Shown in pieces: positions 2,224 to 17,353 of a stretch of 59,278 bases of DNA (within the stretch, counting starts at the first letter, position 1; each line of letters begins with the position of its first letter). The notes under the pieces are model-generated. The model made no database searches, was not told where the DNA came from, and saw nothing but the letters and a program-made list of their open reading frames with translations. Origin of the DNA: Gemmatimonadota bacterium. Lineage in GTDB: Bacteria; Gemmatimonadota; Gemmatimonadetes; Gemmatimonadales; Gemmatimonadaceae. The position numbers were made by a program, and so were the translations under genes. Location: the NCBI GenBank assembly GCA_028287345.1, contig JAQBPV010000003.1, positions 1 through 59,278 of the forward strand, read 5' to 3'.

Positions 2224-2258
2224 GAGACCTTGAAGGATCTCTTTCGGCGACCTCCATA

Positions 2259-2382
2259 ACTTGAATCATGTGAATTTGTTGGAATTTGCTCCCGGTTTCT
2301 TCTGGCAGCATCGTTCTGACTGGGCGAGATCCTCCATGCATTTGCAGAGATGAAATTCTCTCGCAATTCACATGATTCAAGT
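2259..2382. repeat. Left palindrome of the element (18-bp perfect arms)
   Basis: Arms 2259-2276 and 2365-2382 are exact reverse complements, separated by 88 bp. The arm contains the internal direct repeat TGAAT-CATG-TGAAT. Sequence flanking each arm differs, so the outer arm matches the outer arm of the right palindrome and the inner arm matches the inner arm. Confidence 0.85.
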
Positions 2383-2467
2383 CGGTCAGTTGCTATTTGT
2401 GATCCGAAGGCACCGTTCTCGCTCCAGATGCCGACAAAAGCTGCCGATTCCTCAAACGTAGAAACCA

Positions 2468-2776
2468 ATGGGCCATAGGGACGATCGCCACAAACACGCA
2501 GCACAGCGCAAGAGAGACGAGCGTGCCACGACTCTCGGCTTACCGAAGAACAAGGACCGCGAGCCGCGCATGCCGCTCGCTGGCTACGAGTCGCTGTATG
2601 AGATCACAAAATCCGGCCGAGTGTTTTCGTTGAAGACGAAGAAGTTCCTCGCCGAAGGTTACCAACGCAGCCCGTCCATTCGCTTTACGGTGAATGGGGC
2701 AGTGGTGAGCCTGTCGAAGGACAAGGCGGTCGCCGACAGCTGGTCCGCTGAAAAAACTTCTTCCCCGATGGGTTGA
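2468..2776 (+). CDS. NUMOD4-domain protein, probably truncated by an in-frame stop
   Basis: 102 codons from ATG 2468 to TGA 2774-2776. Residues about 34-92 match the NUMOD4 pattern found beside HNH homing-endonuclease domains: a PLAGYESLYEITKSGRVFS core, a lysine-rich KTKKFLAEGY strand and a closing SLSKDKAVADSW segment. NUMOD4 is thought to help recognise DNA. No HNH catalytic His-Asn-His set is present. The N-terminal 30 residues are strongly basic. The same frame continues past the TGA with protein-like sequence to a second stop at 2939-2941, so the gene is probably a decayed longer ORF. It is the only gene inside the inverted-repeat element. The alternative is a genuinely short protein. 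Confidence 0.65.
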   Translation: MGHRDDRHKHAAQRKRDERATTLGLPKNKDREPRMPLAGYESLYEITKSGRVFSLKTKKFLAEGYQRSPSIRFTVNGAVVSLSKDKAVADSWSAEKTSSPMG

Positions 2777-2941
2777 CAGCTCTCCCAGCAGACCATCGGC
2801 GGCGCGATTGCATACGAGATGGCGCGCTCCGAGCTGGCGTACTGTTTCGGGGAGGACCTCGTTGCTGAACTGGACGCAATGGGTTCTGCGGCCACACCAA
2901 AAAAACAGCAACTGCCTGACTTGAATCATGTGAATTCTTGA
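2777..2941 (+). pseudogene. In-frame continuation of the NUMOD4 gene after a TGA
   Basis: Directly after the TGA at 2774-2776 the same frame stays open for 54 codons and reads as plausible protein: QLSQQTIGGAIAYEMARSE, a helical acidic stretch, then PKKQQLPDLNHVNS and a TGA at 2939-2941. A TGG-to-TGA change would explain the break. The last codons (DLNHVNS) are encoded by the inner inverted-repeat arm itself, so the original gene ended inside the repeat. This is a reading of the sequence; no homologue was compared. Confidence 0.5.
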
Positions 2942-3067
2942 GAATTACATCACGGTAGTGGAAGCGGTGGTGCGCCAAATCCTTTTTTTGTTTGTTGCGG
3001 CCGCCGGCAGCCGCAGCGCCACTCTCCTGATGATGGAGCAATTCCAAGAAATTCACATGATTCAAGT
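2919..3067. repeat. Right palindrome of the element (18-bp perfect arms)
   Basis: Arms 2919-2936 and 3050-3067 carry the same 18-mer as the left palindrome in opposite orientations, separated by 113 bp. The spacer has a T-rich run at 2982-2989 and a G/C-rich part and does not resemble the left spacer beyond about 30 bp from each arm. Confidence 0.85.
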
Positions 3068-3326
3068 CATGGAAGTCGCCGGTTGGGAGCCATTCGCGCC
3101 GTTTACTCTACTTCGGCGCGTCTGGGCTGTTGCCACGGCGCCACCGAGATCCGTAGCTCAATCATCAGAGCGCGGTGGCCACCCGGTTGTCATCCGCGCC
3201 CATCCGTGTCGGCAGTTGATCCTCCCAAGGTTCACCACCACAAGCGCGCGGCATATGGCATATACTTTCGGGTGATTGGCGGATCCTGGCCCGCCAGTAG
3301 ATTTATTGGCTCAGCCCGGAGGATGG

Positions 3327-5006
3327 ATGACTGCCACGACCCAAGTCCCACTGCTGAGCCTCTCGGCGCAAGGCGAGAAGCTGTTTCCTTCGCTGACCGA
3401 CGCGCAGATCGAGCGAATCGCAGCCCACGGCCGCGTCAGGAGGGTCGAGGAGAACGAGATTCTCGTCGAAGCCGGCGCGTCCAACGTGCCGATGTTCGTC
3501 GTGAAGAGCGGGACGATCGAGATCATCCGCGTGGCCGATCTCGGGGAAACGCTGCTCGCCCTCTATCATGCCGGCCAGTTCACCGGCGAGATCAACACGC
3601 TCTCCGGTCGCCGAGCGCTCGTTCGCATTCGCGGCGGCGAACCCGGCGAGGTCATCGAGGTCAATCGCGAGAACCTCCTCGGACTCGTCTCGAGCGATGG
3701 CGAGTTGAGCGAGATCCTCATGCGCGCCTTCATCCTGCGCCGATTGGAGATGAATGCGCAGGGCTACGGCGACGTGGTGGTGATCGGGTCGACGCACTGC
3801 TCCGGCACCCTGCGCGTCCGCGAGTTCCTCACGCGCAATGGCCATCCCTATGCCTCGCTCGACCTCGATCGCGACGAGGGCGTGCAGGACCTGCTCGATC
3901 ACTTCCACGTCGGCGAAGGCGACGTGCCAGTGGTCATCTGGCGCGGCGAGATCGTCCTTCGCAACCCGAGCAATCGCGAGATCGCGAGCTGTCTCGGCTT
4001 CAACGACTCGATCGACGAGTCGAAGCTGCGTCACTGCGTCATCGTCGGCGCGGGTCCGTCGGGGCTCGCTGCCGCCGTGTACGCAGCGTCGGAGGGCTTG
4101 GACGTTCTCGTCGTCGAAGCGAACGCACCGGGTGGGCAGGCCGGCTCCAGCTCGCGCATCGAGAACTACCTCGGCTTTCCGATGGGTATCACGGGGCAGG
4201 AGCTCGCTGGCCGCGCATACTCGCAGACGCAGAAGTTCGGCGCTGATCTCCTGATCGCCAAGAACGCCACGAAGCTGTCGTGCGCACGAACGCCCTACGC
4301 GGTGGAGATCGACGACGAGACGAAGATCGCCACGCGCACCGTCATCATTGCCACAGGCGCCGAATATCGAAAGCTCGCGCTGCCGAATATGTCGCGGTTC
4401 GAGGGTGCGGGCATCTACTACGGCGCGACATTCATGGAAGCGCAACTCTGCAAGGACGAAGAGGTGATCGTCGTCGGCGGCGGCAACTCGGCGGGGCAGG
4501 CTGCGGTGTTTCTGGCCCAGACGTCGAAGCACGTCCACGTGCTCATTCGATCGGAGGGGCTCAGGGAGACGATGTCGCGTTATCTCATCAGCCGTATCGA
4601 AGGCTCGAAATCGATCACGCTGCACACGCATACCGAGCTCACGGCCATGGAAGGCGACTACCATCTGAAGCGCGTGCGCTGGAAGAATGGTAAACAGGGC
4701 GAAGAGAAGAGCTTGCCCATTCGTCACGTGTTCGTGATGGCGGGCGCCGCGCCCAGCACGAAGTGGCTCGCCGGCTGCGTGGCGTTGGATGCGAAGGGCT
4801 TCATCAAGACCGGCCCCGATCTCTCGCCAGACGACCTGAGTGCCGCGAAGTGGCCGCTCGCCCGGCGGCCGCATCTCCTCGAGACGAGCCTGCCGGGCGT
4901 ATTCGCGGTGGGTGACGTACGGGCCAACAACGTCAAGCGCTGCGCGTCGGCCGTGGGCGAAGGCGCGATTGCCGTGTCGTTCGTGCATCAGGTGCTGCAC
5001 GAATAG
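3327..5006 (+). CDS. cNMP-binding / thioredoxin-like / thioredoxin-reductase-like fusion flavoprotein
   Basis: 559 residues from ATG 3327, chosen because GGAGG lies 4 bp upstream. Residues about 15-130 form a cyclic-nucleotide-binding beta roll (FTGEINTLSGRRALVRIRGG fits the phosphate cassette). About 150-225 is a glutaredoxin-like fold with THCSGT and a DVPVV cis-Pro region. About 232-555 is a pyridine-nucleotide-disulfide flavoprotein: VIVGAGPSGLAAA binds FAD, VIVVGGGNSAGQAA binds NAD(P)H, and GVFAVGDVR closes the FAD site. The redox CxxC of true thioredoxin reductase is replaced by GATF (YYGATFMEAQ), so it probably does not reduce thioredoxin directly. It converges with the M56 gene, 8 bp away. 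A TATACT at 3261-3266 may be the -10 of its promoter. Confidence 0.88.
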   Translation: MTATTQVPLLSLSAQGEKLFPSLTDAQIERIAAHGRVRRVEENEILVEAGASNVPMFVVKSGTIEIIRVADLGETLLALYHAGQFTGEINTLSGRRALVRIRGGEPGEVIEVNRENLLGLVSSDGELSEILMRAFILRRLEMNAQGYGDVVVIGSTHCSGTLRVREFLTRNGHPYASLDLDRDEGVQDLLDHFHVGEGDVPVVIWRGEIVLRNPSNREIASCLGFNDSIDESKLRHCVIVGAGPSGLAAAVYAASEGLDVLVVEANAPGGQAGSSSRIENYLGFPMGITGQELAGRAYSQTQKFGADLLIAKNATKLSCARTPYAVEIDDETKIATRTVIIATGAEYRKLALPNMSRFEGAGIYYGATFMEAQLCKDEEVIVVGGGNSAGQAAVFLAQTSKHVHVLIRSEGLRETMSRYLISRIEGSKSITLHTHTELTAMEGDYHLKRVRWKNGKQGEEKSLPIRHVFVMAGAAPSTKWLAGCVALDAKGFIKTGPDLSPDDLSAAKWPLARRPHLLETSLPGVFAVGDVRANNVKRCASAVGEGAIAVSFVHQVLHE

Positions 5007-17154: not shown

Positions 17155-17221
17155 TCTCCGCGGATGACCCAGACTGCAACTGAAAAAGCTCGTGCTGCTC
17201 TACGCGGAAACAGCAACCGAC

Positions 17222-17267
17222 GATTGACGCGGATACTACAAATGCTGACGTAGTATCCGCGTCAATC
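17222..17267. repeat. 17-bp perfect inverted repeat between convergent genes
   Basis: Arms 17222-17238 and 17251-17267 are exact reverse complements with a 12-bp loop (17239-17250). The nonamer GTCAATCCG at the 3' side recurs at 17283-17291. It lies in the 199-bp gap between the convergent metallopeptidase and M14 genes, so it could end transcription from both sides, but neither side has a U-run. Confidence 0.75.
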
Positions 17268-17353
17268 CGGCAGTTTATCAGTGTCAATCCGTGTGAGCTG
17301 TTGCTTTTCGTGGTTCTGTCGTTCCGTTGTTGTTCAACCCTCCGCGTACATCC

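Follow-up and report, generated by a model that had tools for sequence, protein, structure and literature searches.

Two copies of a MITE-like hairpin family, nearly confined to one Gemmatimonadota species, on either side of a NUMOD4 gene

The two hairpins that flank a stand-alone NUMOD4 gene in a 59,278-nucleotide stretch of DNA from a Gemmatimonadota bacterium (hereafter the window, 59 kb) are probably two independent copies, in opposite orientations, of a species-specific, MITE-like repeat family of ~200 bp that bracket a native gene by chance. An earlier sequence-only reading of the window had treated the hairpins as the ends of one 837-bp element, possibly mobile but non-autonomous, with the NUMOD4 gene as cargo. 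Mobility is supported for each hairpin singly, by its many copies, by its near-absence from relatives and by an empty site between polX and nth in relatives; for the 837-bp block with NUMOD4 as cargo the evidence does not support it, and no second match that covers the block was found in the genome of origin.

The hairpin pair and the genes around it

The 18-mer ACTTGAATCATGTGAATT is found exactly at positions 2259 and 2919 on the forward strand and at 2365 and 3050 on the reverse strand, and the 59 kb window contains no further match with up to three mismatches; 100 shuffles of the window gave 0 matches. The four copies, two per orientation, are thus all exact, as the sequence-only reading had reported. 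The nested inverted arrangement that it described was also confirmed: the outer arms are 93% complementary over 42 nt without gaps (2245-2286 against 3040-3081) or 92% complementary in an alternative alignment (2245-2292 against 3035-3081), and the inner arms are 91% complementary over 34 nt (2365-2398 against 2903-2936). Both ends are predicted to form hairpins, with folds far better than those of shuffled sequences (z of -6.0 for unit 1 and -7.0 for unit 2). Each end, however, is a whole element of ~170-200 bp with distinct A and B ends. Unit 1 matches the family profile at 2244-2402 with 104 bits, its ends in Table 1 being extrapolated to the profile, and unit 2 matches at 2898-3086 with 145 bits. 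The B ends of both units point outward.

Table 1. Coordinates of the two hairpin units and the adjoining genes in the window
Feature	Position	Strand	Remarks
Left neighbour gene, 455 aa	856-2223	+	without Pfam match
Unit 1, hairpin element	2236-2405	+	loop shortened; B end outward (left), A end inward (right)
Unit 1, B-type arm (CGGCGACCTCCATAACTTGAATCATGTGAATT...)	2245-2292	+	
Unit 1, A-type arm	2349-2398	-	
Stand-alone NUMOD4 gene, 102 aa	2468-2776	+	complete ORF
3' tail, ~27 codons, of a DUF3109/CxxCxxCC-like gene	2810-2902	+	intact copy at C528:354-893
293-bp block of gene tail and unit 2, extending 21 bp past the B arm	2810-3102	+	94% duplicate of C528:135-425
Unit 2, hairpin element	2896-3090	-	B end outward (right), A end inward (left)
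Right neighbour gene	3276-5006	+	cNMP-binding and pyridine nucleotide-disulphide oxidoreductase domains

The B arm of unit 1 begins 21 bp past the stop codon of the left neighbour gene. The first 44 codons of that gene recur with 98% identity at a contig end of the same genome (C409:2-133), as a strain variant or an assembly branch. Elsewhere in the window, a second strong palindrome (17196-17312) has A-end-like ends, AAACAGCAAC and GTTGCTTTT, around a different core, and a related sequence is present on contig C438.

The match of the NUMOD4 gene to its Pfam model scores 21.1 bits, below the cut-off of 23.4, and two homologues in relatives score 27.5 bits, which passes, and 22.9 bits, which fails. 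The homologues, of 99 and 102 aa in the related genomes G009 and G004, are 53-56% identical to the window protein, and G007 has a partial match. Their differences from the window gene at the three codon positions number 29/29/53 and 33/34/65, and this excess at third positions makes NUMOD4 look like a real gene under selection. The core of the hairpin unit is absent, at up to four mismatches, in the retrieved loci of the homologues in G009 and G004 and of the partial one in G007, and a NUMOD4 search of the genome_contigs collection returned 101 pattern matches with 0 confirmed. The gene looks like an ordinary native one, a bystander and not cargo. The genus has further NUMOD4 genes of this kind, ~100 aa long, standing alone and lacking a nuclease domain (L100 on contig C59 of G009 and L101 on contig C24 of G004). 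A homing endonuclease element would join an HNH nuclease domain to NUMOD4, whereas Pfam finds NUMOD4 only, and no nuclease domain, in the window ORF and its homologues; the window protein has weak partial matches, over ~40-75 residues, to phage HNH-endonuclease families.

The gene tail beside unit 2 has an intact counterpart on contig C528 of the same genome, with a unit directly after it; the homologue of this gene in G006 matches DUF3109 and CxxCxxCC under the Pfam cut-offs. The homology to C528 extends beyond the B arm of unit 2 by 21 bp, and beyond the end of the profile by ~12 bp. Unit 2 evidently arrived with host DNA on both sides, and the right outer end of the block is therefore not a clean insertion boundary. 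At another position on C528 (L025 2716-3344), two units lie 103 bp apart beside a displaced 5' fragment of a gene that also occurs on C334 (L012 638-831, 90% alike over 194 bp), this fragment being ~45 bp from a second C528 unit. A search through the genes on either side of the pair found no empty site at the window's own locus: in genomes that matched both genes, the best matches were on different contigs.

Anatomy, distribution and placement of the repeat family

A unit of ~200 bp consists of two near-complementary arms of ~45 bp and a loop; the arms are strongly conserved, whereas the loops vary in sequence and length. The B end has the sequence GCATCTCTGCGGCGACTTCCATGACTTGAATCATGTGAATT and the A end, read inward, AAAAACAGCAACTGCCTGACTTGAATCATGTGAATT, with a systematic difference between the arms, CGGCGACTTCC in the B arm and AAACAGCAACTGCC in the A arm. 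Two of the pairs between the outer arms on the B-to-A strand are G-U, each of them in 22 of 23 aligned units. Both sides are altered in 2 of 27 arm pairs, and since the arm pairs are nearly invariant, covariation says little. Four or more T are found among the six nucleotides after the A arm in 24 of 34 full-length ~200-bp units and in 16 of the 19 cores of a longer form that is described below. Full-length units with a little flanking sequence have a G+C content of 51%, against 64% for the loci from which they were retrieved.

The species is represented by one assembly (6.08 Mb in 543 contigs, 91.8% complete and 5.6% contaminated). A blastn search of the window against this assembly returned 120 matches, nearly all to the arms, so the further copies of the ends that the sequence-only reading had suggested looking for do exist; 40 of 123 candidates were scored at a first look. 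The core occurs 134 times at up to three mismatches, compared with once for the reversed control. A profile built from an alignment of 48 units was then searched in the loci retrieved from the blastn and core matches and from some of the matches to the longer form, where it has at least 88 non-overlapping matches. At least 53 of these are full length, 34 of them belonging to the ~200-bp form and 19 being longer-form cores, and at least 78, on 65 contigs, score 50 bits or more, 22 of them belonging to the longer form. The ends of contigs C403 and C373 (L011 1-469 and L014 4221-4688) share a unit and both its flanks at 97-99%; they are probably unmerged variants, and one unit may therefore be counted twice. 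The motif AACAGCAAC was considered as a separate repeat and rejected, as it occurs 67 times, in 57 cases no more than 45 bases from a unit core, compared with 11 occurrences in all for the reversed motif; three of the 10 occurrences away from unit cores resemble diverged units.

Within the collections that were searched, the family hardly occurs outside one species. Six of nine congeners match the window block, always in the NUMOD4 or the DUF3109-like gene, and the same search found no match to the arms in any of the nine. At up to two mismatches the core is found in one of 98 other genomes of the taxonomic family (G099, a single match with two mismatches), and at up to four mismatches it has 0 matches in 23 loci of relatives. 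The exact 19-mer gave 0 matches in the genome_contigs and viral_contigs collections, from which the genome of origin may be left out. The window block has no match among plasmids and the longer form none among phages, and Rfam returned nothing for the window at gathering scores and nothing at E values up to 1 for six loci of the longer form. Our searches of the literature, made by text rather than with the sequence of the family, did not find a description of it.

Gene contexts were assigned from ORFs and a codon-position caller, with both forms pooled and a few units counting as two matches. Genes lie within 500 bp on both sides of 54 of the 73 scored matches, the other 19 having been dropped for lack of one within that distance on one side, and the flanking genes are convergent in 26 cases, tandem in 25 and divergent in 3. 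Convergent pairs are enriched over the unit-free gene pairs of the same loci (26 of 54 against about 33 of 222, an approximate background obtained by subtraction; p about 1e-6), and divergent pairs are depleted (3 of 54 against 45 of 222; p 0.009). Unit edges are often no more than a few tens of bases away from a stop codon, and the coding sequence of several genes runs into a unit and stops there.

Lineage-specific gain, the longer form and the search for a mobiliser

On contig C199 a unit fills a gap of 209 bp between polX and nth, whereas in seven of nine relatives polX and nth adjoin each other, their DNA matches being 33-136 bp apart; of the remaining two, G005 has no match and G006 has nth without an adjoining polX. 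In five of six junctions inspected, the polX stop codon overlaps an in-frame ATG of nth or is 2 bp from it, the nth start codons being inferred, and in the sixth (G003) the nth match starts ahead of the polX stop. The insert in the genome of origin lies between TGA and ATG, with a duplication of at most the three bases TGA. Gene-order comparison thus shows, as judged at this one locus, that the unit was gained in this lineage, and it is probable that polX-nth is an operon with one unit inside it.

A copy of ~385 bp, used as a query, has 22 other matches with E values of 2e-30 or better and 75-94% identity, many of them truncated. In this longer form an additional block lies on each side of the same hairpin core, and the outer ends are GGGTCTTCCGGGAATT and AATTCCCGGATGAACCC. 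On C269 (L038 4485-5060), a longer-form copy with TTTTTCA at each edge is nested in a ~200-bp unit, whose two halves match the profile in succession; the copy was inserted with a target duplication of 7-8 bp. On C243, TTTCAAAA is found by eye on both sides of another longer-form copy. Duplications were thus seen in 2 of the 13 longer-form copies whose edges were inspected, several of the others being truncated. For the ~200-bp form, none of the 34 full-length copies has a target duplication, a MITE feature that may be lost as copies age, and a duplication scan over the 53 full-length matches found no enriched offset, as did the same scan over the 34. G003 and G007 have weak matches, 37 and 32 bases long, to the outer blocks, so that the species may not be the only one to carry parts of the longer form. 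On C315 (L074 ~2921-3400), a longer-form copy lies between similar terminator-like sequences of ~45 bp.

The ends of the longer form made an ISL3 transposase a candidate. Such a transposase is absent from the genome of origin in a search whose control was positive in 4 of 14 cases. Likewise, Y1_Tnp (PF01797) has 0 matches there, with a control positive in 5 of 14 known genomes; because the assembly is 92% complete, the absence of Y1 is not final. Our verdict is that the MITE-like family is new, its mobiliser having been sought in these two families and found in neither.

Competing explanations and related elements

The ~200-bp units have the characteristics of MITEs in being short and non-coding with terminal inverted repeats, in their many dispersed copies and, at one locus, in the empty site in relatives. 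We propose that the arms would be recognised by a recombinase acting in trans, and that the units may lie after stop codons either because terminator-like sequence is their target or because insertions that did harm were lost. A B-to-A transcript would fold into a long hairpin with a U tract behind it, and judging from its predicted structure a unit could act as a terminator or 3'-end stabiliser.

It is rather unlikely that the units are structural RNA or terminator elements selected at gene ends and not currently mobile. The T-rich stretch after the A arm in most ~200-bp units and longer-form cores, the two G-U pairs, which pair only on the B-to-A RNA strand, the convergent enrichment and the genes that end within a unit are all consistent with such a role, but the near-absence in relatives and the empty polX-nth site show a gain in this lineage, and one unit lies inside the probable polX-nth operon. 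Moreover, between tandem genes the strand that carries the U tract is co-directional with the genes in 11 cases and opposite in 14, and this lack of bias gives no support to a selected terminator role.

The 293-bp duplicate shared with C528, in which host DNA lies to either side of the unit, is not accounted for by clean movement of single units. Together with the lack of target duplications in 34 copies of the ~200-bp form, it leaves room for replication- or repair-based copying driven by the hairpins, by which the elements would spread without target duplication or recognisable transposase and drag pieces of neighbouring genes with them; we give this as little credence as the terminator role.

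A REPIN-type element, an inverted doublet of arms moved by a single-copy RAYT without target duplication, would account for the conserved arms and variable loop, the hairpin fold, the extragenic placement and the missing duplications. The arms, however, are ~45 bp long, the GTAG/CGTC tag, which is described for REP sequences (PMC3733652), was not seen, and no Y1_Tnp match was found in the genome of origin, 92% complete; we consider this origin doubtful.

Movement of the NUMOD4 gene as one unit by the two inverted elements, a composite miniature transposon similar to a TIME, is quite improbable. The gene is bracketed by inverted elements with outward B ends, and TIMEs are reported to mobilise plasmid DNA segments (PMC4133298, in part). 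Six pairs of units lie less than 3 kb apart in the genome, of which only one other has outward B ends and also encloses genes (C528 151-338 and 2947-3113). Against such a transposon, the block is matched once only in its own genome, with no second site; the stretch of 21 bp that adjoins the B arm of unit 2 on its outer side and is shared with C528 indicates that host flank came along; and the two outer ends show no direct repeat, as judged by eye. Several genes within the C528 pair also adjoin the DUF3109-like gene in relatives, and this conserved order marks them as native genes and not cargo. Furthermore, 70-80 random positions in the genome give a mean of 0.5-0.7 pairs as close as that of the window, and 41-51% of simulations contain at least one such pair, so that the pairing in the window needs no special cause.

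Inversion of the segment between the inner 18-mers has next to no credibility: the inner arms do form an inverted pair (91% complementary over 34 nt), but the neighbouring genes with Pfam matches (six ORFs) are not recombinases, and a core that occurs more than 100 times in the genome leaves nothing to mark this pair out. An integron cassette with attC is unlikely, given the dispersed single copies between ordinary genes.

As independent MITE-like copies, the units behave like bacterial MITEs, and by analogy the family most resembles the Correia elements (CREE/NEMIS) of Neisseria, which are described in parts of PMC2649163 and PMC10969869 as ~100-200 bp long, with inverted-repeat ends, more than 100 copies and evidence of mobility, and whose mobilising mechanism is reported there as undetermined. 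CREE differ in that they often insert at TA with target duplication and are mostly found upstream of genes (PMC2649163; PMC10969869, same parts), whereas the ~200-bp units, compared by description, lack duplications and lie at the 3' ends of genes. REPINs, or REP doublets, share the inverted conserved arms, variable spacer, hairpin, extragenic location and many copies (PMC3116915, in part), but are linked to Y1 transposases, with no Y1 match in the genome of origin, and have shorter arms. TIMEs have Tn3-type ends of 38 bp and duplications of 5-6 bp, and no such duplication was found for the ~200-bp units; they are likewise miniature elements with inverted repeats, two of which can enclose other DNA (PMC4133298). 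ERIC, Chunjie and QMITE2 are similar in size, intergenic placement and stable stem-loop transcripts, and QMITE2 is reported primarily from 3' untranslated regions (PMC10969869, in part); these too were compared by description, with a family seen in a single genome.

With no mobiliser found in the two enzyme families searched and no target duplication for the ~200-bp form, more than one mode of spread is conceivable, and hairpin-driven copying, if general, would seed gene tails and stop codons genome-wide. The results add a MITE-like family, with a clean insertion at a stop-start junction and a nested insertion of its longer form, and suggest that an architecture as striking as that of the window can arise from two ordinary copies close together.
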